64,000 nucleotides of DNA from positions 62,001-126,000 of the forward strand of contig JAGTXO010000016.1 in NCBI GenBank assembly GCA_019448385.1, read 5' to 3'. The translations under genes were made by a program, and so were the position numbers. Below the pieces are notes generated by a model that was not told the origin of the DNA, did not search any database, and worked only from the letters and a program-made list of their open reading frames with translations. The DNA comes from Diacronema lutheri. Its lineage: Eukaryota; Haptophyta; Pavlovophyceae; Pavlovales; Pavlovaceae. Positions 20,992 to 59,591 of this stretch are shown here, piece after piece (within the stretch, counting starts at the first letter, position 1; every line of letters begins with the position of its first letter).

Positions 20992-23852
20992 CTATTGACG
21001 GGTGCGGGTCGGCGCCGTAGGCCCCTCATCACCGTCGCGTGTCGCGTCGCGCTCGCAGCCAGCGCGCGCCGGCTCTGTCCGACCTGCGCTGCTTCTTTCC
21101 TCGTGCGCGAGGCTGTCGACGCTCGACAACGGCGTGACGTGCGTTGGCCTGCGCGCGTGCGCAGCGAGCGCGCTATTGCTTCCGCCTTTTCCCGGCGTAA
21201 GCCCCTCGACGCTGCTCGGTACGAGCGAGTTTGCGCGCCCACGGCGTCTGGCGGATGCGGGCTCAACGACCAAGTCCTCGAGCGACGGCTTGCGGCCTCG
21301 GCTTGGCGTCGGTGGCTCCCCAACGTGAGCTCGGGACGCACCTGTCGCGGTGCGCACCTCGTGCACCACGCCTGTCTCGACAGACGACAGCGAGCACATC
21401 GACGCAATCGATTCGCGGCGCACCGGCGGCGCCCGCACGGCCTGCTCGCCGTGCGCACCGTCGCCGAGCGTGGCGTGCGTGCTGCTCGCCAAGCGGCACG
21501 CGTACGCGCTGCGCGCGGCGGCTTGCCATTCCGTTGCCGTGAGTGGGCTGGGCGACTTGAGGTCGAGGAACGCGGGCCGCACGGCGAGCGCGCGGCTCGC
21601 GCAAAACAGCGGCTTGAGCTCGTGTTGGTACCACGAGTCGACGCGGCTAGCAAGGTGCGCGCGCCACGTCTTGCCGCCGACCATCCAGCGCATGCGAGCA
21701 CTCACGCCACCGCCCTCTGCCGGCGCGCCGTGCGCGAGCCACGCGGCCGGTCGCGCGCGAGCGAGCACGTCCGCGAGCTGCGCGAAGCCAAGCTCAGCCG
21801 CGAGGCGTGCCCACACGAGCAGGTCGTTCTCCGCCGAGGCGGCCTCGGGGATGGGACTGGCGCGCTTTGCGACGACGACGGCGATCAGCGAGATCACGGC
21901 GAGCTGCACAAAACGCTCAAAATGCTCGACAGACTGGTACATGGCCTCGATGCGCTCGCGCATAAGGCCAATGTCGCTCGTATAGTAGGTGCGCGCGCGC
22001 GCGAGCTTGAATTCGCGGATCGCGGCCACGTAGCGCTGCAGCGTGCGCTCGGAGAGGAAAAAGTCGACGCACAGCTGCACGTGCTCCGTGTCGTGCAGCA
22101 CAAGGAAGAGCGCCCACTCGTACACGCACCTGGCTCGGCGCAGCGCACGGCAGGACGACGCGCGTGAGCGTGCCGCACGCAACGCACGCGGCACGCAGTG
22201 TGCGCCCGGCCGCACAATGCCGCCGCTGCGGCGCACCAGAGGCGCTCGAAGAAGTCCCACGTGAAGAGCACGATCATCCCCTCGCACCTACGCACAAACT
22301 GCTCGAGCATCGCGATCGTCGGCACCATGATCGGGTGCTGCTGCGCGACGCAGCACTTGTCGACCCACAGCGTCACGTCCTGCCACCGCTCGATTGGCGC
22401 GGGCTGCTGCGCGAGCCGCGCGTCGTCCGCCGCGGGGGAGGCGCCGGGCGCACGCGTGGGCGGCGCATCGCCGCGCGATGCGTGGCCAGACGCGAGCACG
22501 CGCGCGCGGCCGACGTGCCGCCGGCGCTCCCACACAACGTCTCGCGCGGCCGACGCGAGCACGGCCGCCTTCACGTCCGAGTAGTCGAGCTTGGCGCCCA
22601 TCAGCTCGCGCCAGTCGGCGGGCGGCAGCCACGTGTGCGAGACGAAGCGCGTCGCAAAGCTGGCCGGCGCCGAGAGCTCGTAGTCGGCGATCGTGCCCAC
22701 ATTGGTGCGCCAGAAGGCAGACGCGCGCGCTAGCTCGCCAACGTCGACAAAGTCGGCAGCCACCTTCCCGCACCGCACGGCGCGCATGAGCGCCGCGCCC
22801 GGGTCGGCGAGGCCGGGCAGCGCCAGGAGCAGCTGGTCGAGCTGCTCTACGAGCGTCGGCTCCTCGAGGCCGCGCGAGGCGGTGCTCGCTCTGGCCGACG
22901 CGCTGTGTGACACCCTCGCCAGCGCCGCGAGGGCCAGATTGTGGAAGGGCACCCATCGCGCTGAGAATGCCGGGCTCACATCGCGCGCGCTCGACGGGCG
23001 GGTGGCAACTGCGGTCTGTGTGCTCGAGGGCCGAGACACGGACGCTTCGCGCGTCCACCACGCCCATCGCGCGCGCGGCTGTGGCGCAGGCGGCGCGGGC
23101 GGTGCGCCTGCACAGCAGGACTCGATGAGTGCGTGGTGCCAGCCGCGCGACACGCGAACCTCGCGCGCCGTGCGAGCGCGAGCGTTGGGTGATGGCGCCA
23201 GCGGTGGATCGTCGGCGACGAGCGTGCACGCCCACGTCGCGTCGAAGCCGGCGTGCGGCGCGTCCAGCCGGCGCATGCCAAGCGCTGCTCCCGTGACGAG
23301 CCTCGCGACGGCGCGCACGACGCCTGCGGCAAAAGGGACGAATACCTCGCCGCGGCTCGACGCGTACCTGGCGCGGGCAGGGCGCGGTACGTACGCACGT
23401 ATGATGAGCGCGAGTTGCGGCCGGTCGTGCGCGCGCGCACGGCCACCCGCCGCGACGCACGAGATGACAAGCGTGCCGTCGGCCGAGCGGCCGTCGACCT
23501 TGAGGATTGGGAAATGCGCGCCGCGGTGCGTGCGCCAAAAGTTGTGGTGCAGCGTATTGACGTTGCGGAGCACGTCGTCGAGTGTCGTGCCGAGCGCGTC
23601 GAGCATGCGCATGTGCCCCATCTCGGCGAGCCAGTCGACGAAGTGCTCACCGAGCGCGCCGAGCGCGGCGCTCGGATCGAGGTTGCGTTCGGCAGCCGTC
23701 GCGCGGAACAGGGCGAGCGTCGTGGCGTCGGCGTACTGCACGGCATCGAGAATAGCATCCTCGTCGACCACGCCCGCTTCGCGCAAAACCGACTGCCATG
23801 CGGCATCATCGGCGACAAACGCGCGCAGCGCGAGGTGTACGATCCCATGCAT
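20992..23852 (-). CDS. H-NOX heme-sensor domain fused to TIR-like domain
   Basis: Exons 23852-23461, 23367-22237, 22129-20992; 886 residues. The N-terminus (about 1-190) is an H-NOX (heme NO/O2-binding) domain. It starts MHGIVHLALRAF, has a His at about 102 (NTLHHNF) at the proximal heme-ligand position, and a YASSR match to the YxSxR propionate-binding motif. That motif is only contiguous after removing a 93-bp intron (23460-23368), which supports the splice. After a linker come FVSHTW (about 372), LWVDKCC (about 465) and RLWCVYEW (about 508-513), a TIR-like fold with the WCxxE element. A hydrophobic stretch VQLAVISLIAVVV follows, then a Ser/Arg-rich tail. Inference: a gas (NO/O2) sensor controlling a TIR-like effector. 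A further in-frame intron in the linker at 440-490 cannot be excluded. Confidence 0.8.
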
Positions 23853-24340
23853 CAGGGCGTCCCGATCCCTTTACTCGCGTCAAGGCGTCGCGAGCGTCGA
23901 GCCGTGCGTATCCCGCGCGTCGAGGCGGGGCGGCCGTTCTATTTATCGTGTGTGCTGAATGACGAATGAATATAACAGCATATAGGCACATCGAGGACTA
24001 TCATGGTTTAAATTGGTTTTCGTCTATTTCTTAGGAGAAGTGGAGAAGACATCTCGTTTTTGGGACAGTCCTCCACGTGGAGAGACGTCGGAGAAGACGT
24101 CGGGGAGGGGGGGGGGGAGGGAGGGGCAAATCTCTCACCGGGCTCTCGTCATGGACCGAATTAAGATGCGTCGGACAGCTTATCACGAGCAGCGGCGCAC
24201 CCGCGGCGCGCGGCCAAGCAACTTTGACTCTGCGTCGAGCAGCTGGGCCCGAGCTTGGTTGGGACTTGGGGCCATTGGCGGGGCACAACTCACAAGCCGT
24301 GCAATGCAACCCGCCACCCCCCTCCTCCTTGCGCCCAAAC

Positions 24341-24373
<33 letters not shown>

Positions 24374-24489
24374 CCCCCCTGCGCCCGCCTAGTGCCGGTA
24401 CGCTGCGTGCTCTCGCGCGCTCACCCCGCCCCCCCTCTTCCTGCCCTTTTGCCAACGGCCGTTCACGGAAGGATCCGAACTCGGAAGGG
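23853..24489. other. intergenic region between divergent genes
   Basis: Upstream of both the H-NOX/TIR-like gene (-) and the papain-like gene (+). An AT-richer patch at about 23938-24065 is the best candidate for promoter sequence. It is followed by a G-run near 24100-24126 and a run of more than 30 C near 24342-24380. I see no gene. Confidence 0.6.
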
Positions 24490-27400
24490 ATGGCGCGCTC
24501 TCACTTTTCACCCTCGCGCCTCGCGGCCTGCGCGCTGCTGGCGGCCGTTGGCACGTGGGCGGCCGCGCGCCCGACGCGCACGCGGGCAGATATGAGCGCT
24601 CCCGACTTTGCCGCATGGAAGGCCACGTACGCCAAGACATACCTCACGCCCGCCGAGGACGCTGAGGCGCTGGCCAACTTTATGCGCAACTCGCAGCTGA
24701 TCGCAAACCACAACGCGCAGCCGCTCGCCTTCAGCCTCGGGCACAACCAGTTCTCGGACATGTCGCCGATCGAGGTTCGCCGTTCCGTCGCCTCCTTCAT
24801 ACCCCCCTCACCCCCCATCCCCCCCCTTGCCCCCCGATCCCCCGGCGAGCGGCGTCGGTGCCTGCGCGCCCGGCCGAGCGCGGCGGCGCGTGCGCGCGGC
24901 GGCGCGCCGCGCGCAGCGAGATCGGCGAATGCGGTCCGCAGAGTTTGACTGCGATTGGGACGGGCGAATTATCGCTCGAACGCGCCGCCCTGCGCCTGTG
25001 GCTGCGATCCCGCTGCCGACGCGGGGCCCCGGCGCAGCACGGTGGTGGGCTCGTCAATCTCGCTGACGGCGGGAGGGCGGACACCCGCCGACGCGTGGGC
25101 GCGCGGCGTGTGACTGGGCGTGCGCGGGCCCCTGTCTACCGCCGCCTCGCACGCGCGCGCTCACGCGCATCCGCGCGCCACGCGCCGCGCAGTTCCGCGA
25201 CCGAATGCTCACGCCAGACCTCGAGCGGCGCAAGATTGCCCTCGATCTCGCGACGAAGAAGAAGGTGCGCGACGGCGGCGGCGGCGGCGTGCACGCTCGA
25301 CCGCTTGCGCGCCGCAGCGCGCGCCGCGCGCGCCGCGCGCGCCTGCCGACGCGCGGCACGATGGCGTGGCGGCGTGGTGGCGTGGCAGGTGGCGGTGCAC
25401 AAGAAGGGCGACTACGGGATGAAGGAGATGCTGCCGCAGGCCGTCGACTGGGTGGCGATGGGCGGCGTCTCGCCTGTCGAGGACCAGGGCATGGTGCGCG
25501 CTGCCGCCGCCGCCACCCCCGCCGCCACCGCCGTGGTTCTTGCCCGTCGCTCACCGCTCGGCGTTCGCGCGTCGTCCTCGTCGCGTTTCTCCCGCCCCCG
25601 CGTGCGCGGGCGGACCAACGCACGCCGCGCAGTGCGCCGGCTCGTGGGCCTTTGCGTCCGCCGCGGCGATGGAGTCCGCCAGTTTCATCGCCGGCGGGAT
25701 GAAGGAGCCCCTGCAGCGGCTCAGCCGGCAGCAGCTTCTCGATTGCGACCATGGCGCCGCAACGTCGTATATGACCGGTGCGCGCACAACAGGGGAGGGG
25801 GGGGGGGGGGGGGGGGAGGGAGCGCTCCACAGTCCGGACCGCGCCCTATACAGGAGCGACGGAGCGGGAGGGGAGAGGCGGAGCGCGCGCTGTGCGCAGG
25901 CCAGCGCACGCCGCGCGCGCGCGGTCGCATGTCGCCACACGCGGGAGTGCGCGCGCCCGACGATGGGGCCGCCGGCCGGCCGCGCGCGTGCCGCGCAGAC
26001 CACGGCTGCCACGGCGGCCTGCCTGACAAGGCGTTCGGCTGGACGTCCATGCACGGAGGGCTGTGCACCGAGGCGGACTACCCGTTCCTCTCGTCGCAGG
26101 TGCGAGCGCGTGACCGGCGGTTGGGCCCGCCCATGCGCGGGCAGGCGCGTGACCGGCGGTTGGGCCCGCCCTTGCGCGGGCAGTCGCGTGACCGGCGGTT
26201 GGGCCCGCCCTTGCGCGGGCAGGCGCGTGACCGGCGCGGGCAGGCGCGTGCCGGCGCGCGGCGTGGAGGGTGCGGCTGCGCGGCTGCGCGGTGCGCGGTG
26301 CGCGCCCGCGCGCGCGCGCGCGCTCACGCCGGCGCGCCGCGCGCCGACGCGCCGCGCGCAGGGCCGGCGTTACGACTGCCGGGTGCTCTCGTGCGAGCCG
26401 AGCGTAACGGTTGCCGGGTACAAGGACGTGGCGCACCTCGACGAGGACGCGTTGCAGGACGCGGTCGCGCAGCAGCCCGTCGCCGCGGCCATCTCCGCCT
26501 CGCACCCCGTCTTCCAGGTACGGGGGGGCTGCTGCGCAGCTGCGCGCGCGCCGAAGACACGCGCCACTTAGTGGTCGCAACGCTGCGCGGGGCGCACACG
26601 CTCCACCGGGGTCTGGCCAACCGCCCGCTCCACCGGGGTCCGGCCAACCGCCCGCTCCACCGTGGTCCGGCCAACCGCCCGCTCCACCGGGGTCCGGCCA
26701 ACCGCCCGCTCCACCGGGGTCCGGCCAACCGCCCGCTCCACCGGGATCTGGCCAACCGCCCGCTCCACTGTGGTCCGGCCAACCGCCCGCCCTGCGCCTC
26801 CACGCGCCTCTGTGCGCCTCTGTGCGCAGCTGTACAAGTCGGGCGTCTTCGACCACCCGCTCGCGTCTGACGGCGCGCTCGACCACGTCGTGCTCATCGT
26901 CGGGTACGGCACGACCGACGCGGGCGTCAACTACTGGAAGCTGAAGAACTCGTGAGGCGCCGCACGCCCCTACTTCATGCGCCCGCCACCAGGCCTGCTC
27001 GCCGCGCGCGCGCCCACCGGTGTTCCTGCGCGTCAACCCGCCGCCCGCCCTCGCGCGCGCGCGCTCAGCTCCCGCCGCGTCGGCGCCGCGCGGCGCGCGG
27101 CGCCTCCGCAGCTGGGGCACGACGTGGGGCATGGACGGTTATGTCCTCCTGCGGCGGAACGTCAACATGGCGGGGATCGCGTCTATGCCCGCCTACCCGA
27201 TCGGCGTCGGCGCGCCCGAGCCCAAGAAGCTGACGCCCGCGGAGGAGGTCCACCAGCTCGGCCCGCACATTCACGGACCCGACATGGCACGCCCGACCAT
27301 TCCCCGCGCCCCCCCCCCCCCCCCCCCCCTCCCCCCCCCCCCCCCCCCCCCCCCCCCGCCGCCGCGCTCGCTGCGCCGCCGAGCGCTCTCGCCGATGGCG

Positions 27401-28420: not shown

Positions 28421-28636
28421 GTGGGGAGCCCTCCGACCCCGGCCGTCCGGCAATGCGCGTATGGGAACGTTGACTGACGGACTGAGCACAATATGCAACC
28501 GTTGACAAAAAAAAAAAAAAAAAAGGGGGGGCGGGGGGGCGGGACTGCCGAGGCAGTTCGGCGCCAATATTCGACGCGCAGGGCCAGGACGAACTGCCCC
28601 TCCTGGCCCTGCGCCTCGATCGCGGTCACGCACGAG
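28421..28636. other. intergenic region between convergent genes with A18-G7 run
   Basis: Contains 18 consecutive A (about 28507-28524) followed directly by G-runs, an unusual composition for this window. The minus strand across this stretch is open and reads plausibly (for instance SCVTAIEAQGQEG), but I could not splice it convincingly onto the neighbouring coiled-coil gene. Confidence 0.5.
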
Positions 28637-35068: not shown

Positions 35069-38000
35069 ATGCCGTACCGTCCGTTGACGGAGGTGGACGG
35101 CGGTGCAGTCGCACGCGCGGCGCGAGGCCAGAGCGCGACGTGGGACAAGCGGGTCGCCGCGTTCATGCTGGTCCGCGTGCCCGTCTCGGACGCGGCCAGC
35201 GTGCATTACTGGGAGGCGTGGGTGGTCGTCACGGCGCTCTCGACGGTGGCTGTCACGTGCGTGCTCGCGCTCATCCTCTCGCGGCGCCGGCTCAGGGCGA
35301 GCGTGTACAACCACTTCATCGTCGGGCTCGCGATCCCCGACCTCGTCTTCTCGCTCCTCTGCCTGGCGACGTGCGGCCTGCACGTCGCGCACGGGCACTG
35401 GTACGACGGCGACGCACTATGGCACGGCGACTGGATGTGTGACTTTCAGGCATGGTACACAGTTTTCGGCTCGGCGGGCTCAATGTGGATCAACGTGCTC
35501 ATCACGGCCGAGTTCTTCCGCGTCACGTCGTCGGTCCGCCGGCTGCACACGTACACGCCGCCGCGCGTGCGCACCATCTGGCACCGGCTGCTCGCCGTGT
35601 ACGCGCTCGTCGCCGTGTACGCGTGGGTGCCCACGTTTGGCTACCGCTTTTGGCCGCAGCTACCGATGCGCGCGTACGCCGTGCGCGGGCTCAACTGCCT
35701 GCCCGTCCCGTTTGACGACACATCCAACGCCGTGCAGATCTGCTACATCTACGGGCTGATGGCTTTCTTGCCGTTCGCGATCATGCTCGTCCTCACGACG
35801 TGCATCTTCCGCCCGTCGCTTGGCGCGGACGGTGGGCGCGGGGGCGCGGACCTGCCGACGCAGCGCCCGTCTGCCAAGGTTGTAGCACGCCGCGCTCGCG
35901 CCGCCACCGTCGAGGACGTGCGCCACGGCGCAGATTCGAGCCCGTCGCCACACGTGTTGCCAAGCCCGTCGCGGCTGCCCGCGCCACCCGACGCGACCGG
36001 CATCCGCGTGAGGGCGCCATCCTTGCCCGGCGCCCTCCCGCAGCCCACGCATGCGCTCAACGGTGCGCCGGCGGACGAGACGTACGCACTCGACGTCGTC
36101 GACGAGCGCACGTCCGCGGCGCTGCTCGTCTTCTTCTCGCGGCTCTTCCTCATCATCGCCTTGTGCTGGGCGCCCTTCTTCGCCGTGTGGGCGACGCAGC
36201 TGCCGTACGACAAGGCGGGTGCGCAGTGGGCGTGGCTTGCGGGCACGTGGGCGCATATGCAGGGCTTCGTGTCGTCGATCACATATATGATGAAGGAGGA
36301 CCTGCACGCAGAGCTGAGGCTGCTCGGCGCCGACGCGCGCGGCTGGCTCGCGCGCCGCTGCGGCACAACGCGCGGCGAGGGCGGTGGCACGCGCGCGTTA
36401 CGCCTCGCGCAGCGCGAGAAACGAATCCGCGGCATCATTGGCGGCGGCCAACCGTACGCGCAGCTCAGCGACGACGACAGAACGTCGGCCATCGACATGG
36501 CGGCACTGAGCGGCGACCTGGAGGCGGCGATGGCGGCCGTCGCGCTCGACGCCGAAGCAAACATCATCGCGCGCGAGCGCACGCCGATGCTCGTCGTTGG
36601 CTGGACGGCGTGGCTGCTCTCCGACGAGATCCCGCGCCACTCGCGCGGCATCTGGCGCGAGCGCAAGCCGACGGACACGATCATCTTCATCTCGCACCGA
36701 TGGTGGCGCACCGACGCGCAGCGGCCGGACGACGACGAGCACACCAAGTACCACCTGATCACCGAGGGCGTGCGCATGCTGATGGCCAAGCACGCCATCG
36801 CCGAGGATCAAGCCGCAATCTGGATCGAGTGCGCACGCGCGGCGCGGCGCCGTCGCGCGCGCCGACGCCGCGCGCGAGCCGCCCCCCCCCCCCCCCCCCC
36901 CCCCCCCTCCCCCGCTTGCACCACCCCTCGATCGCGCCTGCACGGCGCGCGAGCGCGGCGCTCGTTGGCTCGCGCGCGCGCGGGCCGCCATGCTTGCACG
37001 ACGGGTCGAGGGGCGATGCGGGCTCAGGCCGCGTCGCCGTGCCGCATTGCGCCGCCTGCCGTGCGCCGCCGTCTGCCGCCATGCGCACAGCTACTCGTGC
37101 ATCGACCAGGACGACACGGCGCAGCAGCGCCTCGGCATCTCGTCGCTCATCACGTACGCGGCCCGCTCGTCCTTCGTGCTCATCCCCGTCGAGCCAACGG
37201 ACGAGGCGATGAGCGCGCTGCACGCGGCGCGCCACCCGATCGACCTGATCGATTACGGCGAGCGCGCGTGGTGCCGCTGCGAGATCTACGTGTTCGTCTG
37301 CCTCGCCGAGGTGACGCGCCGCGCGGTCGCCGTGTACGGCTACTGCAATGCCGACGTTCCTGCGGCAGCGGCGAGGGGCAGGCGCGGCTCGGCCACGCGG
37401 CTCGCGCGGAGAAGCGCGGCGCGCAACTCGACCGTCGCGCACCCGCCTCCACACGGCGACGCGCCTCTTCGCGCCACGCCCACCTTGAGCGGGGCCATGG
37501 GCACCGCCGAGTCGCTGCGCGCGGGTGGGATCAACGTGCTGCGCGCGCTCGGGCTCTTGACGAGTCCGCCCCGAGAGCAGTTGCGCGCGCTGCTCACGAC
37601 GGGCTCTGCGCTCGCGCAACGCTCGCTCGGCGCGCGCGCGCACGGCGGGGGCGGCGTGCGCTTCGCGTTCGACGAGATGCCATCGTCCGGTGAGGTCACG
37701 CTCGAAGCCGACCGCGACACAATCCGCGCCATCGAGGACGACGTGCGCAGCTGGTTTGTGCACTCGGCCGTGCTCGACGAGAAAATCCGCTTCGACCTCG
37801 TCGCCGCCGGCCGCCGGCAGCTCGCGTTCGCGCTCGACGGCAAGCAGGTGGACGTGCAACACGTGCCACTCATCGCGGCGGTGCTCACCTCGTCCGCAAA
37901 TCTCGCGTATCTCACCTGCCTCTCGCTCAGGTCCAACCTGCTCTCGAGCGAGGCGGTGCGCGCCGTCGTCGCGCGGCTCGTCCTCGCCGAGCCGATGGCG

Positions 38001-38411
38001 GCGCTCGTCGAGCTGGACCTCTCGTACAACGCGCACATCGGCGTGGCGGGCGTCAAGGCGCTCGCAAGGGCAGCGGCGCACGCGCGCTTCAACCTCGAGC
38101 AGCTCGGGCTGCGCGGCTGCGAGCTCGAGCCCGACGCGGGCGCGCCGCTCGCGCGGCTCGTGCGCAGAGCGCGCCGACTCGCGCACCTTGATGTGCGCGA
38201 CAACGCGCTTGACGACGGGGCGATCAGCGCGGTGGTCGACGCGTCGTCGGGCACGTGCTTCCTCGTCGACGGCAACCCGATCTCGGCGCGCGTCTTCCAG
38301 CTCGTCGCGCTCGTGCAGATGCGCGCGGCGGGCTTTGCCTTCGACGCGCACCAGCCTGCAACGGGCAAATCTGGGAGCGGCAGCTCATCGTACGGCAGCG
38401 GCTCACCGTGA
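35069..38411 (+). CDS. 7TM (GPCR-like) receptor fused to TIR-like domain and leucine-rich repeats
   Basis: Exons 35069-36828 and 37091-38411; 1026 residues. Seven hydrophobic segments span about 50-410 (for example NHFIVGLAIPDLVFSLLCL, SMWINVLITAEFFRV and FFSRLFLIIALCWAPFFAVW). A long loop lies before TM6, and the layout resembles cAMP-receptor-like or family E GPCRs. Cytoplasmic part: IIFISHRWW (about 538-546), IWIDYSCIDQDD (about 584-595) and RAWCRCEIYVFV (about 646), a TIR-like fold with the WCxxE glutamate (about 651). WIDYSC is only formed by the proposed splice (ga|gtgcgc ... acag|ctac), which supports it. The C-terminus has RI-type leucine-rich repeats (about 860-970; LTCLSLRSNLL, LVELDLSYN, LEQLGLRG, LAHLDVRDN). 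Inference: a surface receptor signalling through a TIR-like effector. Confidence 0.82.
36882..36907 (+). repeat. C-homopolymer in intron of 7TM-TIR-like gene
   Basis: About 25 C in intron 36829-37090. It lies some 180 bases before the acceptor, too far to act as a normal pyrimidine tract. Confidence 0.85.
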
Positions 38412-44836: not shown

Positions 44837-47800
44837 TCATGACCGATCGGCCCTGCCTTGGTCGTCGGCGGCGCCGGCCGCACCGTCGATTGCGGCGGCT
44901 GCCAATTCGGCCGCGTGCGCCACCCGCGCGAGCTCGTCTAGCACGGTGGGGTAGAGCGCGCGCACGGTCTCGTTGAACGCGGACGTGCTCGCGATCTCGA
45001 CCAGCCTCAAGACGAGCCGCCGGTCGCTTGCGCGTGGCTCGTCGCAGTACATGACATGGAACGCGTCGACCGCCGCGAGCAGCGCGCTGCGCCCGCGCTC
45101 GTCGGCAACGACGGGCAGTACGCGCACCATGTCCTGCCCGCCGCCCGTCAGCCACCAGACGAAGATCTCCATCGTCGGCCACAGCCGCTCGAAGAGCGAT
45201 GGCGACGCGAGGACGAGCAGCCGCGACGAGCGCGCGAGCCGCACGGGCAGGTGCTCGAGCGAGCGGAGCGCGGCCGCGTGGCTCCGCTCCGCAGCGCCCG
45301 CGGCGGTAATCTCGCCATCTGCACGCTGCGCCGACGAGGCGAAGGCTCGCGACGTACGCGCTGCCGCCAGCCGCGCAGCGTGCACGGCGCCACCCGTGTC
45401 GCCGTTGCGACCCGCTGCCTCCGAAACGGGTCGCGAGCCGCTCGCCGCCGGTGTGGGCGCGTGCGGCTGACACGCCGGCGGCGGGTCGCAGAGGCTGCTG
45501 ACGAACGCGACGGGTGGCCTGCCCTTGGCCTGCTCAAAGTCGCGCGCAAACTGGCGCAGAGCGGCGAGCTTGAGGTGCGCTTCGTCCTCACCGTGCACGA
45601 CGTAGCCGTCGTAGGTGCGCACCGCCACTGTGTGCGTGCGCGCGAGCGCGCCGAGCTGCTCGTCGCGCTCCGTCATCAGAGCGGCAGTCTGCGCCGGCGT
45701 GTTGGCAGGGGGCGGCGCTGCCTCCTGGCGCGCAGCGGCGCCCGTCACACGGCCCTCGACGCTCGCCGAGCGCAACAGCGCGGGCACGGCCCTGCGCATC
45801 GAAGCGGGCGTGCTCGTGAGCGCGGACGGGCGTTTGGACGCGCTGTCGGCGGATCGGCGCGGCGCGGTGTGCAGCCCGCGTGCCGAGTCGCTCGTTCTGC
45901 TCCTCGCCCTGGCCGGCCGCGCGTACGGGCGCGCGGCGTCAACCGCCGCCCACGCTTTGCCCACGGCGTCGAGCCCGGCGGCGTCGAGCACGACGCCGCG
46001 CAATGCCGCGCGCGCCAAGGCGTGCAGCTCGGCCACGTCTCGCGCGCCCTCGGCCGAACCGTACCCAACGAGCGGCGCTAGCGACGCGACGACGCCCTGC
46101 ACGCCGCTGCCCGGCGCCGCGATCAGCGCCTGCGCGCGCCGCTGCAGCCGCGGCGACGCGGCGAAGGCGGCGAAGAGCACCTCGGCCGGGATCGGCGCGA
46201 AGACGAGGAAGACAACCAGCGCGCCGCGCGCGTCGCCCTCGGCGGCGATGGTCTCGCGCAGACTGCCGCTCAACGCTCGGCCAATGAAGGCCACCGCATG
46301 CACGAGCGCGACACCTGAGAAGAGGAGAACGAGGCTCCGCCATTGTGCGGGCAACAGTCGCTGCACGTCCGTTCGGTACCGCCAGAGCCACACGTGCCGG
46401 CACACGAGCACGACAGCGTTGGTGGCGATCTGCAGCAGCGCCGCGAGCGCGATGGTACGCTCGTCCGCGTCATGTGCGTCCCCAGCCGCCCAGCCGGCCC
46501 ACAGGCTGGGTGCGAGGCGTGCGACCGTGAGGGCGTACGGCACGGTCGCGCCGACAATCATCGCGTCGCCAAAGAGGATGGCGGCGATCAGGCGCGTGAG
46601 GTGCTCGGGCACGGGCTGGAAGCAAAGCGTGATCAGGTTGCCCGTCACGCCGAACCCGACCACAAGCACGAGCGCGCGCGCGCGGTCAAACACAACGTTC
46701 GACGCGCGCGCGAGCGCAACGCCTGATTGCGCGACGGGCGCGGCTCGCAGCCCGCCAGAACCGCTCGTGTCGGTCGTCGAGATGAAGAGCGCGAGCACGG
46801 CCGCTCACACGGACACCGCGAGCGCGAGCACGCGCAGCATCACGACCGTCTGGCGCACGCGCGCTGCGGCGACAGACTGCGCGAGCAGCTCGGCGGTGAG
46901 CTCATGCGACGCCGTGCCGTCGGCCGAGCGCAGTCGGTCGGCGTGGAGCAGCTCGACGATGGCTGCGGAGGAGAGGCGCGGGGCCAACGGGCCGCGCAGC
47001 TGCTCCTGCTGCATGGCGATGGACTGCTGCCAGCCCGAGGCGCGCTGCCGCCCCGTGCCGGCGCGAAGGGACGCGCGGCCCATGGCTGCACTCGGGGAAC
47101 TGATTTCTGGTGGCAGCACGCTGAGCACGGCACTGGACGAGCCGTCCGCCGCATCGACAAGGCCGCGTGCGCGCGTGCGCAGCGCGGCAGCTGACTGCGC
47201 CCCCCGCCGCCGCGTCAGCGGCGGCGTGCCGCGCGCAGACGGCGCGGGCGTGGCGCACGGCTCCGACGGCTGCGCGCCGCACGCGCTGGGGCACGCGCGC
47301 GGCTGCGGCGGGCTGGCGCTTGGCGCGCCCGGGCAGCGCTGCTCGCCGTGCGCCGCCAAAGCAAAGCTCGCGCCTAGCGGATGCACGGCTGCGCCGGCGC
47401 GCGCGCGCGCGCTGAGCTGCCACGAGTGCGGCGATGCGCGGTGTGGCGCGGCGGGGTCACTGTCGATGAGAGCCACCGAGTGGTACGTCTCGCGCAGCAG
47501 GTTGTGCACCGATCGCACGTCGATCGCGTGCGCGGCACTGAGCAGCAGCCGGTGCGAGACGCCCTTCACGACCACCTCGGCGCCGGGCGAGAACCAGTCG
47601 GATGTTGACGGCAAGACGGTCATCGCCGCGATCACTGCGTGGCACGCGGCGCGCGCGCGCGAGTGGTGAGCGCGCGGGCGGCGCGCACAGCGGCAGTGCA
47701 ACAACAGCGTCCGGCGAGCCAAGCGCCGGGCATCGCTCACTGCAGGGCAGACACCAACGCGCGGTGGGCGGTGCGCGGCGAGCGGCGCGCAAAGGCACGG

Positions 47801-48804
47801 GGCGCAGCGAGGCGCACCGTCGTACGGCTTGACGAAACCGTTGAGATGGGCGAGGATGTTTGCGCCCTCGCCGAGCCCAGCGAGCGCCTTGCGCTCAAAG
47901 TCGGCGCCATTGACGCCGCAAAAGGTGGCAAAGTACCACGCTTTGTCGCAACGGGCGGGCAGCTGGCCGGCACACAGCTTCTTCCACAAGCCCGCCAGGC
48001 CCAAGAACTGCGCGTTGGCGAGGTAGCGCAACACCTCCGATTTGGTGCGCACGGCGAAGGAGCGCGCGAGCTGCATCGGCAGCAGCTGCGCGCGCGCGAC
48101 GGCGTGGAGGCGCAGTGAGGCCCGGGGCAGGACGCGGCCGGGGCGCGCGCGCGCGCGTGCACGCACCGGCACCGCGTCGCGGCTGACGATGCTCATCCGG
48201 ATGCCGTGCGCGAAGGAAAAGTTGTACACCACGTCGGCCGCGGCCGGGTCAAAGGCGTTGTTTTGCGACGTGTCAGGCGCGTAGCCGTACGGCGCGGCGG
48301 CGTCGAGGATGAGGCCGCCCTGGATGGCGACGGCGCACACCTTGCGCCGCACGAGCGCCGGCTGTGCGATCACGAGGTCGGCAAAGTCGCGCAGCCCCGA
48401 GATGAGCAGCATCGTGATCGCGCGCGGCGCGGCGCGCGCGAGCGTGCGCGAGAGGAGCGCCGCGCCATCGAGCAGGCGCGACGGGTCGACGGCGTCAAAG
48501 CCGCGCATCGCGCACTCGTGCGGCTGCTCGGCCTGCACGACGCCGAGCGAGCCGATGCCGACGGGCACGGCCGGCTCGCCGACGCGGTCGAGGATGAGCC
48601 GCGCGAGTTGCGCGCGCCGCGCGGGCTGGCCGCCGCCGTTCGCGACAACAGCAGCAAGGCGGATGCGCCCACGGCGGTGCGGATGCGCCCACGGCGGTGC
48701 GCCATTGCGAGCACGAGCAGCGCCTTCACGTCGTCGGGGTCGGGGCCCAGGTCGGTCACGAGCGCGACCTCCGCGACCGGGGGCGCGAAGGTGCTGTCCC
48801 ACAT
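44837..48804 (-). pseudogene. disrupted nucleoside hydrolase-TM-TIR-like gene
   Basis: Segments 48804-48167, 48085-47818 and 47634-44837 match the gene at 55583-59591 along its length. The N-terminus has VTDLGPDPDDVKALLVLA (nucleoside hydrolase Asp cluster). Conserved downstream elements are NGGGQP, LRYLANAQFLGL, VKPYD|VIAAM, LLRETYHSVAL, several TM segments and a TIR-like end (RLLVLASPSLF, RLWPTMEIFVWW). Two lesions are visible. A perfect 20-bp tandem duplication (48661-48700) shifts the frame; removing one copy restores MAHRRGRIRLAAVVANGGGQ. An in-frame TGA at 46807-46805 sits inside a TM segment whose reading continues on both sides (VLALAVSV * AAVLALFIS). It could be a pseudogene, two assembly errors, or, for the TGA alone, recoding. 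Confidence 0.7.
48661..48700. repeat. perfect 20-bp tandem duplication causing a frameshift
   Basis: ggatgcgcccacggcggtgc occurs twice back to back. Twenty bases is not a multiple of three, so one copy puts the rest of the nucleoside hydrolase-like gene out of frame. Confidence 0.97.
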
Positions 48805-52281: not shown

Positions 52282-52318
<37 letters not shown>

Positions 52319-55303
52319 GAGCAGCCCGCTCGTCAGCCTCGGCTCCTTCTCGGCGATGCTCGCGGGGCCGACGGTCGGCGGAGGCGGGCACGCGCAGGAC
52401 TGGGGGCTCGCGACGGCGACGACGCCCGTCGCGCGCGCGCGCACGGACTCTGCGCATCTGTCCGGACAGGGTATGGCGCCGATGCTCCTCCCGCCCGGAT
52501 TGTCCGGACACATGGGCACGGGCGGAGGCGGCGCGCTTGGCAGCGGCCACGCGTCGCCGTCCGCGCTGCCCACGCACGCGGCGGCGGGCGCGCCCGCCGC
52601 CGACGACGGCGGCGCGCTCGCGCTCGCGCTGCCGCCCGCGCTCGGCGCCGAGCCGCAGGCGTCCGACGTCGTCGCGCTGCCCGCGCGCGCCGTGCTCGCG
52701 ATGGTTGCGGCGAGCTGCGGCGATGGTCTAACCGTCGTCGACGGATCGGGCACGGCACCCATCGTGCGCGCCGCGTGCGAGTGGGCGCGTGTGCGCGTGT
52801 GCGCGTGTGCGCGTGTGCGCGTGTGCGCGTGTGCGCGTGTGCGAGTGTGCGAGTGTGCGGGTGTGCGGGTGTGCGGGTGTGCGAGTGTGCGGGTGTGCGG
52901 GTGTGCGAGTGTGCGGGTGTGCGAGTGTGCGGGTGTGCTGGTGTGCGGGTGTGCGTGCGCGCGCGCGGCCGGCGTCACGCGCGCGCCGTGCGCGGTGCGC
53001 GCCGACGCGCGCCTCCCGCCACCCCTCCCGCCCCCCCCCCCCCCCCCCCCCCCTCCCCCGCTTCCATCCATACACACACCGCGCATCGCGGTAGATCCTC
53101 TTTGCGAACCGCGCGTTCGAGCAGATGAGCGGGTACACGGCCGCTGAGCTGAAAGCGAGTCCGCTCGGCCTTGGGTTGCTCACCGGGCACGACACGTCCG
53201 TCGCCGCGCTCGCGCAGCTCAGCCGCGGGCTGCGTTCGGGCCAGCCGGCGCGCGTGCTGCTCGTGCATTACGACCGCTCGCGCCGCCGCTTCCTCAACCT
53301 CGTCTCCGCCTCGCCCGTCGGGCCGAGCGACGCGCTCGTCGGCGCCTTCCGCCGGCGCGCGGCCATCTCCGCCGCGGCGGCGGCCGAGGCGATCGCCAAC
53401 GACGACGACGAGGAGAACGCGCTGCAGAACGCGGACGCGCTCCTCGAGGCGAGCCGCACCGACGCGCGCTCACTCAAGCTGCTCTCGCGCGGGCAGCTCT
53501 TCTGCGTGTCGCATCAGGACCTGTCGCACACGCCGCTCGAGGAGGAGGCGCGTGGGCACGTGCAGCAGCACCCGCACTACCACGCGCTCGCCGCCGCGGC
53601 CGCGCAGCCGCCGCCCGGCCTGCCCGTCGAGCGGCCGCCGCGCGTGCCCTCGCGCTGGGGCTCGGGCACCGAGCCGCCGGCCGCCGCCGCCAAGCCCGCG
53701 TCGCTCCACGCGCAGCCTTTGGACGCGCACGGCGTGCGCACGGGCGCACTCGTGCCAATCACGCGCGCCGTCTCTGCCAACGGCTTGGCGTGCGCTCCGC
53801 TGGCGTCGGCCGCGGCGATCGCCGCGACGGCGGCGCTGAGCGCGCCCCTCGCCCGGCCGCCGACCACGCCGCCGCACCCCTTGCCGGGCGCACCGCCCAG
53901 CTGCGGCGCGATCACGAGCAAGACAGTCCTGCCACCCGGCTCAGCGATGGCGCCGGGTACGCACGCGCGCGGCACGCCCAATGGCGGCGTGAAGCCGCCG
54001 CGCTCTGCCGGCGTCGCGTCGGCCGCCGCGCTCGCCGCCGAGGCGGCAAAGGTGCACCCGCTCGGCGTGCCGCGCAGGATGGGCGCGGTGCTCTCCGCGG
54101 CGCTGTTGCAGAGGCTCGTCGCCGACGGCCTGCCCGAGCTCGACGCGGCGGACGCGGCGTCGAGCGCGCAGCTCTCGTCGCTCGGCGTCGTGCGCTCCGC
54201 CTCGCACGCGTCGCACGGCACGCGCGCCGCCGCCGCTGCCGTCGCCGTCGCCTGCAGCGCGCCGTCAACGGGCTGCGCCAGCGAACCGCGCGAGCACGAC
54301 GCGTGCGTGGAGGGCAGCACGCGGTCGGTGGCGGGCGCGCCGCTGCCCGTGCAGCTCGACGAGCTGCTGCTGCGCGCGTGCCTCGAGGGCTCGCGCCTGT
54401 CGGTCGTCGTCTCGCGCGTCGCCGCGCCCGACCAGCTCGGCAGCGCGGAGCAGCCGATCGTCGCTGTCAACGAGGGATTCGAGGTGCTGCGCGACGCGCG
54501 CGCCCGCGGCGGCAGCGTTCGCTCCGCGCGGCCGGGCCGCGCCGCGGGCGCGCGCGTCGCGCCGCTCAGCGCGCCGCGCCCTCGCCGCGCCCTCGCCGCG
54601 CCCTCGCCGCGCCCTCACCACGCCCTCGCCGCGCCCTCGCCGCGCCCTCGCCGCGCCCTCGCCGCGCCCTCGCCGCGCCCTCGCCGCGCCCTCGCCGCGC
54701 TGTGCCGCTCGCGCGCTAGGCGCTGACGGGTTATTTGTCCGAGGAGGCGGTTGGGCGCAACTGCCGCTTCCTGCAGACGGACGCAACGGACCCGCTCGCG
54801 GTTGGCGCGGTCAAGGGTGCCGTCACCTCGCACTCGGTGACGCGCGTGCACCTGCACAACGCCACCTATGGTGCGCGCGCGCACGCGCGCGCGGAGAGCC
54901 GGCGGAGAGCCGGGGGAGGGCCGTGTGACGTGCGTGCGCGCGCGGCTTGGTGGGCGCTGCACGCGCTCACCACGCGCTTTCTTCCCCATCCCCCCCCCCC
55001 CCCCCCCCCCCCTTCCCCTTCTCAGAGGGGCGTGGCTTCTGGAATGTGCTCTCGCTGCACCCCGTCAATCTCAACCGTGCAGACGAGGATGGCGGTTGGC
55101 GGCTGCCGAGCGCGCGCTCAGACTCTGGCGCTGCGCTCGCCGCCGATAGGCACGGGTCGGTCGCCGAGCGCGCCGAGCGCGCGGCTAGGGCCGACTACAT
55201 GGTTGGCATCCAAACGGAGGTTTCGCGCTCCGAGTTGGGCGACATCCTCGCTGAAGCCGCACGATGGCGCACGCGCGCTGACATTTTGCCGCCGCTCTTG
55301 TAG
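49349..55303 (+). CDS. AGC kinase with PAS, SnoaL-like, LOV-like and LOV domains (kinase-first LOV receptor)
   Basis: Exons 49349-49495, 49650-49838, 49992-52763, 53095-54483, 54720-54870, 55026-55303; 1641 residues. Kinase: GSGEYG (28-33), YAMK (Lys49), YRDLKPEN (143-150), DFG (163-165), an enlarged activation loop, CGTPSYLAPE and a C-tail with NFKDF. A PAS-like region follows (about 446-660; LLRLLRWGDKECRDELVG). Next is a SnoaL-like domain (about 695-800; THWTWSGTHLG, PATGARVQ). A PAS/LOV-like domain (ILFANRAFEQMSGYTAAEL) lacks the photoactive Cys. The last domain is a canonical LOV: ALTGYLSEEAVGRNCRFLQ (Cys1514), VHLHNATYEGRGFWNVL and MVGIQTEV keep the Cys, two Asn and Gln flavin contacts. 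Inference: a blue-light-controlled kinase with the reverse order to phototropins. The atg at 49349 is the first good start. Confidence 0.88.
49496..49649 (+). other. GC-AG intron in kinase-LOV gene
   Basis: Donor atgaag|gcgcgg, acceptor cctcag|gtgatc, phase 0. The join YAMK|VIAKTNLVLRGQ restores the ATP-binding strand. No GT lies where it could keep the conserved Lys. Confidence 0.8.
49839..49991 (+). other. GC-AG intron in kinase-LOV gene
   Basis: Donor atcgag|gcaaga matches the usual GC-AG donor consensus; acceptor gccag|gcgaaa. The join ALIE|AKRSLPEAWVKLY restores the family spacing. The intron is a multiple of three and open, so retention would insert an Arg-rich stretch. Confidence 0.75.
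52787..52956 (+). repeat. gtgtgcg-type microsatellite in kinase-LOV intron
   Basis: An eight-base pattern gtgtgcgn in which the last base changes from c to a and g along the array. It lies within intron 52764-53094, which also has a C-run near 53030-53058 before the acceptor. Confidence 0.9.
54578..54704 (+). repeat. 11-bp tandem repeat in kinase-LOV intron
   Basis: About eleven copies of gccctcgccgc (one variant, ccctcaccacg) in intron 54484-54719. This intron splits the LOV core between GFE and ALTGY. Confidence 0.9.
54991..55012 (+). repeat. C-homopolymer as polypyrimidine tract of LOV intron
   Basis: About 20 C followed by ttccccttctcag and the acceptor of intron 54871-55025. This is the clearest case of a C-run at the normal pyrimidine-tract position. 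Confidence 0.85.
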
Positions 55304-55582
55304 ACGCCGCAGTGACCGCACGTGCGCGGGTGCAAGCTGCATTTGCGCGGGTGTGCCATCAGGCGCGCGTCCTGGGTGCGAACCCATGCGCCTGAGGCGC
55401 CTTGTCACTTTCGCGGCGCCCTTTGCGGCCACGGGAATGTCAGCCCTCGTTGTCGAGCATGCGGAAAATGGGCGGGGGCCGCCATGGTCCACTCTAACTG
55501 ACCCGCTTATTCATCCAATAATGTGGGGGTACACACCCATCTCCCTTTACGACCCTATCCACGAAATTCATCAGCGAGCAGG

Positions 55583-58500
55583 ATGCAGACGACGTTGTAC
55601 GCGCCACGTTCCCCGCTGGGCTTGCCGACGCGCACCTCGGCTCGCCGACGCTCAGCGTCGACCTTTGTCTTGCCGTCATCCAGGCGGCCGAATATTCTGT
55701 TGGTCACGGACCCGGGACCGGACCCCGACGACGGTGCGCGCGGGGGCCCCGGCGCTGTGCGCGCCAGCGCCGCTCACGCGCCGTTGGCGTGCGCTCGTTG
55801 ACCGTCCCGATGGAATACCGTTTCCTCTCCTCGGCCCTGCCCATCGCGCCCTCGCGTTGCTCCGCACGCGCGCAGTCAAGGCGCTGCTCGTGCTTGCGAC
55901 GCTGCACCGCGATGGCGCCATCACGTTTGTAGGCGCGGTGTGCAACGGCGGCGGCCAGCCGGAGAAGCGCGCGCGGCTCGCGCGCTGCTTGCTCGACAAG
56001 CTCGGCGTGCCCGACGTGCCGGTCGCCATCGGCTCGCATGGCCAGCCATACGACGCGCAGCCGCACGAGTACGCGCTGAGCGGGTTCGACGCCGTGGACG
56101 CGTCGCGGCTCCGGCCCGCGTCTGAGCTTGTGCTCTCCATCCTGCAAACGTCGGAGCCAGGTGCGCTCACCGTCGTGCTGATCAGCTCGCTGCGCGATTT
56201 TGCCGATGCCATCCTCGCCTACCCGCAGCTCGTGCGCCGCGCTGTCGGCTCGGTCAGCGTGATGGGCGGGCTCGAGCGCGACGAGCGCGCGCGCTTCGGC
56301 TGGGCGGCGGACTCGTCGGTGAACAACGGCTTCGACATGGCGGGCGCGCAGGCGGTGTACGACTGGTGCTTCGCCGAGGGCGTGCCGCTCGCCGTCGTCT
56401 CGCGCTTTGCCGTGCCGCTCCTGCCCATGTCGCTCGCGCGCTCCTTCGCCGAACGGAGCAACTCGGATGTGCTCCGCTACTTGGCCGAGGCGCAGTTCTT
56501 GGGCCTCGAGGGGCTGTGGCACAAGCTGTGCGCGGGCAAGCTACCGGCGCGCTGCACCAAGCAGGTGCGCGCCGCGCGCCACCGCGTGCGCCCAATCACC
56601 TCCCCTCGGCCACCGCCGCTCGGCCGGCCTCACGCGACCCGACCGACCGCGTCCGCACGCGCGCCGCATCGGCGCGCGCGTCGCGCCGTGCGCAGTGGTT
56701 CTGCGAGACCTTCTGCGGCATCGACGCGGCGCAGTACGAAGCGCAGGGTCTCGAGACGCGGCTCGGGCCGAGCTCGGAGATCCGCAGGCGCCTCAACGGC
56801 AACGTGAAGCCATACGGTGGGCGCGCGCGCGCTTCGCACGTGCGGCCGCTCGCCCGCCCGGCGCGCGCGTGGCGCTGACCAGTGCCGCGCCGGACGCCGC
56901 GCGCCGGACGCCGCGCGCCGCCGCGCGGTGGCGGCAGACGTGATCGCGCTGATGGCGGCGCTCCCGCACACGCGTGCGCTTGTGGCGCCGAGCGAGCACG
57001 AGGCCGCCGCGTCCGACGGTGCGCCGCCCGAGCGTCCGCCGATCGCCTCGAGCCGCGTGGTCAGCGTGACGGCGGCGGATGGGCGGATTGTCCGCCACCT
57101 GCTGCTCCTCGAGCCTGACCACGCGCCCGAGCTCGAGCACGTGGTTGGGCTGTTGCGCGAGACGTACCACAAAGTCGCCTTCCTCACTCGCGCGCGCGTC
57201 AACCACGGCGAGTCAGCGAGTGCAATTGACCCTCGCTTGCTCAGCTGGAGGGTTGAGCACGCACCCGGCGGTATGGCGCTCAGCGCGACGACGCTCGCGA
57301 GCCCTGCGCGTGGCGCGGCGCACAAGGCGGTGGGCCCGGCGCCAACATCGGGCGCGCCCGACGCCAGCGCGGCGGGCGCTCGGTTCGTGGACGTGGGCGC
57401 CGCCACCACCGCGACGGCACTCGGCCGCGACGGTTACGGCCTTCTCTCGCAGAGTCGCCTCGCTGCGCGCCTCGATGCGACGCTCGACGTCGCGCGCGCG
57501 ATGGACGCGCGCGCGTCGGGGCGAGTCGTCGCGCTGCTCGTCGGGCTCATCGTGCTCGCCGTGGCCAACGGCGTGTGGTCCTACTCGTCGGACACGGCGT
57601 CGGGCCAGATCGCCTTTGCGTTCACCTTCCCCCTCGTGACGCTCGCGATGCTCGTCGTCGTCGCGTGGCTGCGCGACGACCGCGCGCACGCGTGCGCCGC
57701 GCGCCTCGCGCTGGTGGCGGTCGTGCTGGTGCTCACCTTCCAGCTCGTCGTCGCGCTCGGGTACGCGCTCGAGAGCGTGGACGCGCTCGTGTGGATGCAG
57801 GCGCGCACGGCGGTGGACGTGACGACCGCTGTGACCGAGCGCTTCTCGTCGCCCGCCGGCGAAAGCGGCCGAGCGCTCGGCACCGCGCGCACGACCGTGG
57901 CGTGGGCCATGGTCGCATTCCTCGCGCTCGCAATCGCCCAGCTGGCGCCCTTTGCGCATGTGCGCGCCGCGCGTGCGGACGGCAATGCGGGGCTCGCAGC
58001 TCGGTTGTGGAGCTCAGTGCGCGCCTTCACGGGCGCGCCGAGTGCCTATGTGCTCTTCCGCGAGTCGACTTGCTTGGCCACGCGCTGCGACGACCGGCGG
58101 CAGCCGGGCGTGGGCGCAGGCTTGATGGCGGTCGCGTGTGCTTATGTGCTCACCGCCGCGGCGATGTGCCTCCCGCGCGCACGGCCGCGGCTGCGCGCGC
58201 TGCTTATGCGGCTTGTGCGATGGAAAGTGGTCGCAGTTCACTTGCCCCTCATCGCGCTCCTTGGCCTCGACGAGGCGCGCGCAGCCGGCGGCGCGCGCCC
58301 GCGCGAGGCGGCGGACGTGATGGCCGCAGCCGCGCGCGCCTTCTCTGTGACCTCGATCGTTGACCTCGCCGACGCGGTTCGCTCGGGCGACGAGGAGGCG
58401 GCCAGCGGCGAGGGCGCGCTCTCGCGCGTGTCGATCTGGGAGCGCGGCGCCGGGCGCGACGCAGCTGATCGCGGCGTGGACGAGCCGCTCGGCGTGGGCG

Positions 58501-59591
58501 CGCGGCTGTGCGCGCTGATTCGGCCGGGCGGTGGCGCGGCCACGCGCGGCTCGCAGGGCGTCGCGCCCGAGATGATGCGACTGAGCACGACGACGGGCGG
58601 AAGCAGCGCGCAGCTTTTGCGCACGCAGCTCCACACGGGCGCCCTGTCGGAGACGGCGCAGGCGCTGGTGCAAAGCCTCCGGCAGGTGCGCCGTTCGCTC
58701 GACACGATCATGTCGAGCACGAGCGCCTCGTCTGACATCACGCCCCCGCCCAACGCGGCGATGGCGGCGTCCAAAATGAGCGCGCTCGCGCCACGCACCG
58801 CGCGCGGCGTGGAGCGCGCTCCGATCCCCGCGCAGCGCCATGCCGCCTCGTGCTTGGGGCAGGTGCGGCCGACGGAAGCGCTTTCGTGCCCGAGGCAGCA
58901 GCGAAGCAGGTCGTGGACGCCCTCGCCGACCATCGGCATCCACCCGTACCGCTCGTCCGAGCGCGCCAAGTGGAACGGTCGGGTCGAGGTCCGCCATCGT
59001 GAGCGCGACCCCACGATGGCGATGGCGCCGTCGCGCATCGCCGCCGCCGAGAGCTCGGTCGACTACTTTGTCGTCCACTCGCACCTCGACAGCGCCGAGC
59101 TGAAGCGCGAGGCGCTCGCGGATTGGTGCGCGCGCGATGAGCAGAGCGGCGCGACGGTCTGGCTCGACGTGCTCTCGGCGAGGGCGGATGCGGAGCCGAT
59201 CGAGCGCCTCGAGCACCTGCCCTTCCACCTCGCGCGCGCGCGCAAGCTGCTTGTGCTCATCGGCGTTGAGTTTGCGCGCTCGTTCGAGGCCGTCATGCAG
59301 CTCTACGTGTGGGCTGCGACGGGCGGCTCGCTCGACAAGGTCGAGGTGGTGCTGCTCGGCGGGCCGGAGTCGGCCGCGGCCGTGTACGCGTCGCTCGACG
59401 CGTTCCACGTCATGTGGGCGCAGCCCGCGCGCTGCAAGGCGTGCCAGGAGCGGCTTGTGCGCGCCGTCGAGATCGCGTCGGTCGGCGGCTTCAACGAGGT
59501 CGTGCGCGCCTACCTGCCGTGCGTGGGCAAGCTGCTGAGCACAGCGGGCGTGGTCGAGAGCGGCGAAAGCGGCAGGGGCGCGCAGGTGTGA
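55583..59591 (+). CDS. nucleoside hydrolase-like domain fused to multi-TM region and TIR-like domain
   Basis: Exons 55583-55733, 55876-56564, 56696-56816, 56938-59591; 1204 residues. The N-terminal region is basic and Ser/Thr-rich. A nucleoside hydrolase (IUNH)-like domain follows (about 37-420). It has NILLVTDPGPDPDDVKALL (ribose/Ca-binding Asp cluster), GAVCNGGGQP, SGFDAVDASRL, LTVVLISSLRDFADA and LRYLAEAQFLGLEGLW. At least four TM segments lie at about 520-760 (VVALLVGLIVLAVANGVW, FTFPLVTLAMLVVVAWL and others). The C-terminal TIR-like domain begins VDYFVVHSHLDSAELKREAL (about 1028) and continues ATVWLDVL and ARKLLVLIGVEF. The WCxxE position reads FEAVM, so that Glu is missing. All junctions are in phase. 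Inference: a membrane receptor or enzyme sensing nucleosides or NAD products. Confidence 0.82.

Follow-up and report, generated by a model that had tools for sequence, protein, structure and literature searches.

Varied sensor domains apparently joined to a divergent TIR/HET-like output domain in the haptophyte alga Diacronema lutheri

The stretch of Diacronema lutheri DNA analysed here, called the window (64,000 nt; contig JAGTXO010000016.1, positions 62,001 to 126,000), contains four genes, at 20992-23852, 35069-38411, 44837-48804 and 55583-59591 (genes 1 to 4, the third perhaps degenerate), in which differing front ends are combined with C-terminal domains of one kind. By their sequences all four are real genes, and profile comparison shows their C-terminal domains to be homologous (hhalign 97-98%). 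A first-pass annotation of the window had quoted twelve short motifs from these domains; ten of the twelve are present directly in the raw reading frames, and the other two, IWIDYSC in gene 2 and RLWCVYE in gene 1, are recovered once a single GT-AG intron has been spliced from each gene. Its claim that the four domains share a common layout is borne out by the profile links, and the domains of genes 3 and 4 are 36% identical in the alignment called A1 below. The front ends it named are also there: HNOB (the H-NOX domain) in gene 1, 7tm_1 (a seven-transmembrane, or 7TM, receptor) in gene 2, and, below the Pfam cut-off, IU_nuc_hydro (a nucleoside hydrolase family) in gene 4. To this description must be added the leucine-rich repeats of gene 2.

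Gene 1, on the reverse strand, joins an H-NOX sensor to a TIR-like domain. Exon 1 (22237..23852) encodes the H-NOX domain (about 23475-23846; HNOB E 4.5e-15) and, in the same frame, the opening portion of the TIR-like domain, with the FVSHTW motif at 22629-22646. A GT-AG intron, read from the sequence at 22130..22236, splits the W codon of RLWCVYE, and exon 2 (20992..22129) completes the TIR-like domain with WCVYEWALF and adds a C-terminal region. A single open reading frame (ORF; 21894-23852) holds both the sensor and the beginning of the output domain. The H-NOX domain matches the beta-1 subunit of soluble guanylate cyclase (phmmer E 6e-9), with residue His105 of that chain, which we take to be the proximal heme ligand, aligned to His102 of the algal protein. 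By eye, it also has a stretch of the YxSxR type (YASSR). Against TIR_2 the output domain of gene 1 scores under the cut-off (E 0.015), and it has no HET match.

Gene 2, on the forward strand, places the corresponding domain between a 7TM receptor and leucine-rich repeats. Exon 1 (35069..36828) encodes the receptor, class A-like by profile (7tm_1 at about 35258-36193, E 3.4e-12, over the cut-off) and then, from about 36623, the first half of a TIR/HET-like domain, with the FISHRWW motif starting at 36686 in the raw frame. After a GT-AG intron (36829..37090, a reading of the sequence) that carries a long poly-C run, exon 2 (37091..38411) encodes the remainder of the domain, to about 37346 and including RAWCRCE, followed by the repeats (LRR_6 at about 38004-38066, E 7.7e-7). 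Here too one ORF (35069-37693) holds sensor and beginning of output domain together. The closest PDB chains to the 7TM region are G-protein-coupled receptors (GPCRs) of the aminergic type (best E 1.4e-4), and crude hydropathy finds only five segments in it. With the intron removed, the output domain of gene 2 scores 23.0 bits against Pfam HET (PF06985), over the cut-off of 22.5.

Genes 3 and 4 share a third architecture, a nucleoside-hydrolase-like front end followed by membrane segments and a TIR-like domain. In gene 4 (forward strand) the front end at 55691..56564 is read as exons 55691-55733 and 55876-56564 (IU_nuc_hydro E 3.8e-7), and its DPGPDPDD stretch has the form DXXXDXDD. The sequence reading places another exon from 56696 onward; a polytopic membrane region with six hydrophobic segments by simple hydropathy follows at 57525..58268, and the TIR-like domain, identified by AlphaFold2 and Foldseek, at 59043..59546. 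In gene 3 (reverse strand) a Pfam scan of one stretch gave no match, and the front end (48487..48768) was detected instead by homology, in the search with the gene 4 front end (C11:110488-110685 and 110664-110768 in our contig numbering, C11 being the contig of the window). Hydrophobic, apparently transmembrane segments lie at 46163..46675 by hydropathy, and the TIR-like domain at 44927..45622 has a long insertion and keeps the Glu of RLWPTME. An in-frame TGA (46805-46807) sits inside an earlier hydrophobic stretch, and a 20-bp tandem duplication within the front end (48661-48700) shifts the frame; because of these two lesions it is plausible that gene 3 as assembled is a pseudogene or an assembly error. 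The front ends of genes 3 and 4 occupy exons separate from the TIR-like domain, and at 13 other loci both halves lie in one open frame (equal frame length, in phase).

The first-pass annotation regarded the genes as a local set. A purely local set is ruled out by a search of the whole genome (43,492,796 bases in 103 contigs): three domain queries at E<=0.01 gave 110, 63 and 15 matches that merge into 148 loci, a count from an exon-wise search in which weak matches may be false and some pairs resemble assembly duplicates. Both the gene 1 and gene 4 queries match 27 of the 148. Four loci fall in the window (three queries, same threshold) where the genome averages 0.22 per 64 kb, an enrichment of about 18-fold, and clusters of family loci are also present outside the window.

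The pairing of the domain with particular front ends recurs across the genome. A match to the output domain lies no more than 6 kb downstream, on the same strand, of 9 of 11 H-NOX matches (9 of 10 genes), all seven 7tm_1 matches and 34 of 41 nucleoside hydrolase (IUNH) matches, each against 0.9% by chance; this test used 110, 34 of 63, and 15 domain matches. A search with the gene 4 front end, set against all 110 domain matches, gave 76 matches, 66 of them linked to 65 domain matches, where chance would link about 1%. Further front ends include an ANF_receptor region (locus L012; one of two genome matches), a Big_9/cadherin-like region (L014) and hydrophobic regions (L062). This recurrence bears on the notion that short motifs in GC-rich frames resemble one another by chance or convergence, the four domains being unrelated. 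Long spurious frames are indeed common at very high GC content (the ORF list of the window holds 96 of at least 250 aa), and no domain passes a TIR cut-off, but the profile links, the predicted fold and the repeated pairing with these front ends across many loci speak strongly against the notion, leaving it a practically negligible probability. The H-NOX gene at C40:165358-165948 is the only one without a nearby TIR-like match. None of the six guanylate-cyclase matches in the genome (E<=0.001) lies on a contig with an H-NOX gene.

What kind of domain this is was approached through alignments and predicted structures. Alignment A1, for the gene 4 type, has 36 rows: gene 4, gene 3 and 34 loci elsewhere in the genome. 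It was drawn from 40 fetched candidates of the 110 domain matches (30 loci and a further 10) plus L062, L063, L065 and gene 3; L018, L024, L029, L041, L042, L043, L045 and L074 were left out as near copies or cut sequences, and L016 is gene 4 itself. A2 has seven members and A3 has 17 rows. One-to-one hhalign comparisons link the gene 4 type to the gene 2 type, the gene 1 type to the gene 4 type (97.6%, over the second half of the domain only) and the gene 1 type to an alignment that mixes eight rows of the gene 2 type with nine others, the set of values being 97.1%, 97.6% and 98.3%. The AlphaFold2 model of the gene 4 domain, made with the rows of A1, is a confident one (predicted local distance difference test, pLDDT, 91.4; predicted TM-score, pTM, 0.87), and Foldseek finds 1351 matches to it in the PDB at E<=10, 12 of them at E<=1e-3. 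The best 50 of the 1351 are all TIR proteins, including plant resistance proteins, SPARTA, TRIF, TRAM, MAL, AbTir, BtTir, ThsB2 and the like; a few full-length chains in the list we take to be TIR proteins even though their titles do not contain "TIR".

Family models say less. At E<=1, eight of the 36 members of A1 match TIR_2 (best 2.9e-5), four HET, two TIR and one ThsB_TIR; a PADLOC scan of A1 gave three families, each matched by one or two of the members (best 1.8e-4), and six TIR_2 matches over the cut-off occur elsewhere in the genome. Proof of TIR identity from sequence alone was not reached: in the PDB the best matches of the A1 profile are SIGIRR (E 0.059) and TLR15 (E 0.17). As for two of the checks that the first-pass annotation proposed, TIR family models put none of the four domains over the cut-off and give weak TIR_2 matches in their relatives, while structure prediction returns a TIR fold for gene 4 and a weaker model, not specific to TIR, for the gene 2 type. 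The label "TIR-like" is justified for gene 4 by its predicted fold and for genes 1 and 3 by their homology to gene 4, neither gene 3 nor gene 4 having a HET match; gene 2 is nearer to Pfam HET. We conclude from these comparisons that the domains form one divergent TIR/HET family, lying under the cut-offs of TIR models; for gene 2 the conclusion draws on homology more than on its own model.

The front end of gene 4 provides a second line of evidence on what the family may do. Compared with the PDB, its joined exons match 4kl0 and 4p5f, which we take to be XopQ entries, at 8e-23 and 7jlu (XopQ) at 1.6e-21, as against at least 6e-5 for true nucleoside hydrolases. XopQ is also its sole NCBIfam match (E 2.5e-17), at 62.7 bits against a cut-off of 500, so that by sequence the front end is a relative of XopQ, not a XopQ. 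The reference list of PMC8910321 fits the assignment of 4kl0 and 4p5f to XopQ, and HopQ1-like proteins are described as having DXXXDXDD in place of the DXDXXXDD calcium motif (PMC11685791). Reading the sequences finds DXXXDXDD in the front ends of both gene 3 and gene 4. A survey of 20 short front-end stretches finds it in all 16 that were chosen as TIR-linked (15 of them within 6 kb, and one on C44 that is 6.5 kb from a TIR-like match); of four unlinked front ends, two have DXXXDXDD, one is a canonical DXDXXXDD hydrolase and one has neither.

XopQ is reported to bind ADP-ribose, to be inactive on common nucleosides (PMC8910321) and to cleave 2',3'-cyclic AMP and GMP, possibly signals of plant receptors (PMC11685791); TIRs, for their part, are reported to make ADP-ribose and 2',3'-cyclic nucleotide monophosphates (PMC9963460, PMC9153377). 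This combination suggests a role for front ends of the gene 4 type in handling TIR-made nucleotides. The first-pass annotation had called the receptors nucleoside-linked, a label in need of refinement; the XopQ/HopQ1-like affinity of the front end suggests TIR-type nucleotides as the ligand rather than plain nucleosides. The same results bear on another possibility, that the XopQ-like/TIR-like fusions sense or salvage nucleosides and that the TIR-like part merely signals their presence. A match to a nucleoside hydrolase family and the presence of membrane segments would agree with that, but the motif is non-canonical, the match to XopQ-type structures is far better than that to true nucleoside hydrolases, and XopQ itself is reported inactive on common nucleosides while binding ADP-ribose, all of which makes such a function distinctly unlikely.

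The TIR-like domains themselves differ at the position expected to be catalytic. In TIR NADases the Glu lies on the helix that joins strand C to strand D (PMC7075850). In the gene 4 model the matching column falls in a helix (residues 81-92) between strands 66-73 and 100-104, and its residue is Gln86 (codon 59298-59300). The first-pass annotation placed a catalytic Glu in a WCxxE-like helix, and this is what genes 1 (WCVYE), 2 (WCRCE) and 3 (WPTME) have, but not gene 4, whose third motif has Gln. Plant TIRs carry a WCxxE motif in which Cys adjoins Trp, and Cys adjoins Trp in genes 1 and 2 as well. Glu occupies the column in 25 of the 36 rows of A1. It is there in 14 of the 25 rows with a XopQ-like front end (linked within 6 kb in 24 cases and at 6.5 kb for the row on C44) and missing from 11, including gene 4; the 11 rows outside the XopQ-like group all have it, a difference (Fisher p 0.015) that is indicative only, as the rows are related. 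All four gene 1-type rows have the Glu, as do the 16 A3 rows long enough to include the position, seven of which are of the gene 2 type (nine of the 16 also stand in A1; L014 stops short). From this residue we infer that the Glu-bearing domains may cleave NAD; not every TIR has the Glu or NADase activity (PMC9153377).

Adding a mechanism to what the sequences show (the domain architectures, output domains that are homologous, a predicted TIR fold for gene 4 and genome-wide coupling), we consider it somewhat probable that Diacronema lutheri has a large receptor-like family in which varied sensors are fused to one divergent output domain of the TIR/HET superfamily. A ligand (a gas at the H-NOX domain, an extracellular ligand at the 7TM domain) would make the TIR-like domains associate, much as those of plant TIR receptors do. 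Glu-bearing members (genes 1 and 2, and gene 3 if it is expressed) would then cleave NAD+ or a related nucleotide, leading to a second messenger or to cell death, and the membrane-bound XopQ/HopQ1-like members (genes 3 and 4) would bind or hydrolyse such nucleotides. Because many of the XopQ-like members lack the Glu, members of the gene 3/gene 4 type may act partly through the TIR-like domain as a non-catalytic scaffold. A complete TIR-nucleotide circuit, with H-NOX and 7TM fusions writing the signal when a gas or an extracellular ligand is sensed, some 65 XopQ/HopQ1-like membrane fusions reading or erasing it and their often-dead TIR-like domain serving as an adaptor, we hold to be unlikely.

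A number of results weigh against the receptor family as we propose it. Pfam TIR (PF01582) has no match anywhere in the genome, the curated TIR cut-offs are passed by none of the four domains, and a PDB search with the profile of the gene 1 type or of the gene 2 type, each by itself, brings up no TIR. None of the loci matched by the gene 2 query is also matched by the gene 1 or the gene 4 query. Even for gene 4 the agreement of the model with TIR structures is loose (among the best 50 matches, TM-scores on the query, TMq, of 0.36-0.51 and root-mean-square deviations of 3.4-15.9), and the gene 2-type model, made from the paralog L001, has a pLDDT of 75, no match at E<=1e-3, and nucleoside 2'-deoxyribosyltransferases as its best matches. 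To these must be added the interrupted frames of gene 3 and the XopQ-like rows without Glu.

Some of these points have been weighed as signs that the domains, or at least that of gene 2, are HET or nucleoside-2'-deoxyribosyltransferase-like enzymes and not TIRs. The gene 2 domain is over the Pfam HET cut-off, weak HET matches occur in 4 of 36 A1 and 3 of 7 A2 members, and the gene 2-type model ranks the deoxyribosyltransferases highest, a SPARTA TIR standing eighth in its Foldseek list, ThsB 37th and SARM1 45th, with caspases and lumazine synthases also present. Set against this are the uniform TIR identity of the best 50 of 1351 matches to gene 4, the homology of the types by profile, and the proposal that HET is itself a remote relative of TIR, with homologs in Haptophyceae (PMC4986451), and we regard such a separate identity as improbable. 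We give more weight, if still rather little, to the idea that all the domains are TIR/HET-fold scaffolds and nothing else, which would self-associate when the sensor is activated and recruit TIR/HET proteins or kinases with no catalysis of their own. It would account for the missing Glu in gene 4 and ten more of the 25 XopQ-like rows; TIRs lacking Glu or NADase activity are on record (PMC9153377), and HET is proposed to work by recruiting HET proteins (PMC4986451). The retention of Glu in every other A1 row and in all gene 1-type and gene 2-type rows reaching the position speaks for catalysis, as does the plant-like Cys beside Trp in genes 1 and 2, and a scaffold-only family is for these reasons somewhat unlikely.

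Comparison with known systems shows which parts of the proposed receptors are familiar. Plant TIR nucleotide-binding leucine-rich repeat receptors (RPS4, RUN1, RPP1, RPV1) share the fold found for gene 4 by Foldseek, the Glu-bearing WCxxE-type helix of genes 1 and 2, and the leucine-rich repeats of gene 2; they differ in that no NB-ARC match occurs in the parts of the algal genes scanned, that the algal sensors are H-NOX, 7TM or nucleoside-hydrolase-like, and that the algal sequences lie under TIR cut-offs. Fungal HET proteins (PF06985) resemble gene 2, whose domain passes that model, but those of the HET-E type join HET to NACHT and WD40 (PMC4986451), whereas the algal partners are a GPCR-like 7TM region and leucine-rich repeats. 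SARM1 and the bacterial TIR NADases (ThsB of Thoeris, SPARTA TIR-APAZ, AbTir, BtTir) appear in the Foldseek lists and have other partners. Soluble guanylate cyclase and other H-NOX proteins resemble gene 1, in which the beta-1 His column is conserved, while the algal output is TIR-like and contigs with H-NOX genes have no cyclase match. XopQ/HopQ1-like proteins provide the best structural matches and the DXXXDXDD motif; XopQ is a secreted bacterial protein (PMC8910321), whereas in the alga membrane segments connect the domain to a TIR-like one, an arrangement present at about 65 loci of a single genome.

A 2026 atlas of TIR domains describes its uncharacterised clades 10-13 as highly diverged TIRs that are common across eukaryotes (PMC13142454), and the algal family may fall into one of these clades; the main text of the atlas mentions none of the strings haptophy, H-NOX, GPCR, nucleoside hydrolase and HET domain. 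The kind of domain is known, and diverged eukaryotic TIR clades are in print. The three combinations (H-NOX/TIR-like, 7TM/TIR-HET-like/leucine-rich repeat and XopQ-like/membrane/TIR-like) were not found in the part of the open-access PMC literature covered.

Receptors of immunity and cell death use TIR and HET domains as their outputs, and a unicellular alga appears to employ one TIR/HET family as a general output for receptors of the gas-sensing, GPCR and nucleotide types, at 148 loci (weak matches and possible duplicates included) in a genome with 14,446 annotated genes. The family supplies sequences intermediate between TIR and HET. Through it a sensor of the nitric oxide type would gain an output that is not guanylate cyclase, and a domain of the XopQ/HopQ1 kind, familiar from plant-pathogen proteins, is set beside TIR within one protein. 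Should the circuit described above prove true, what plant pathogens use to destroy TIR signals, a nucleoside-hydrolase-like protein, would serve within a single cell as an ordinary receptor domain.

Several observations concern the wider family and the window. Crude hydropathy at 19 loci gives one to six membrane segments, too uneven for placing the front end. Five tandem copies of a TIR-like gene, spaced about 2,694 bases apart, occupy C9:281883-293132, and five more copies lie within about 10 kb at C48:342373-351998, with open frames of 559-591 codons each. Pairs with identical scores on C76/C77, C69/C72 and C34, some of them mirrored on C34, suggest recent or assembly duplicates, and copy counts may be inflated accordingly. 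At C54:32245-33807 an ANF_receptor region and a weak gene 4 front-end match, both in frames of 815 codons, occur with no TIR-like match. A scan with two short patterns gave 27 pattern matches among viruses, none confirmed, and 31 among bacteria and archaea, one confirmed. The confirmed one, L085, lies on a metagenome-assembled contig of Chitinophagia, which encodes a relative of the domain at 41% identity and may be eukaryotic contamination. Within the window, an Rfam scan at gathering scores gave no match, and a short tandem repeat at about 54600-54720 has a translated unit near PSPRPRRALAA.

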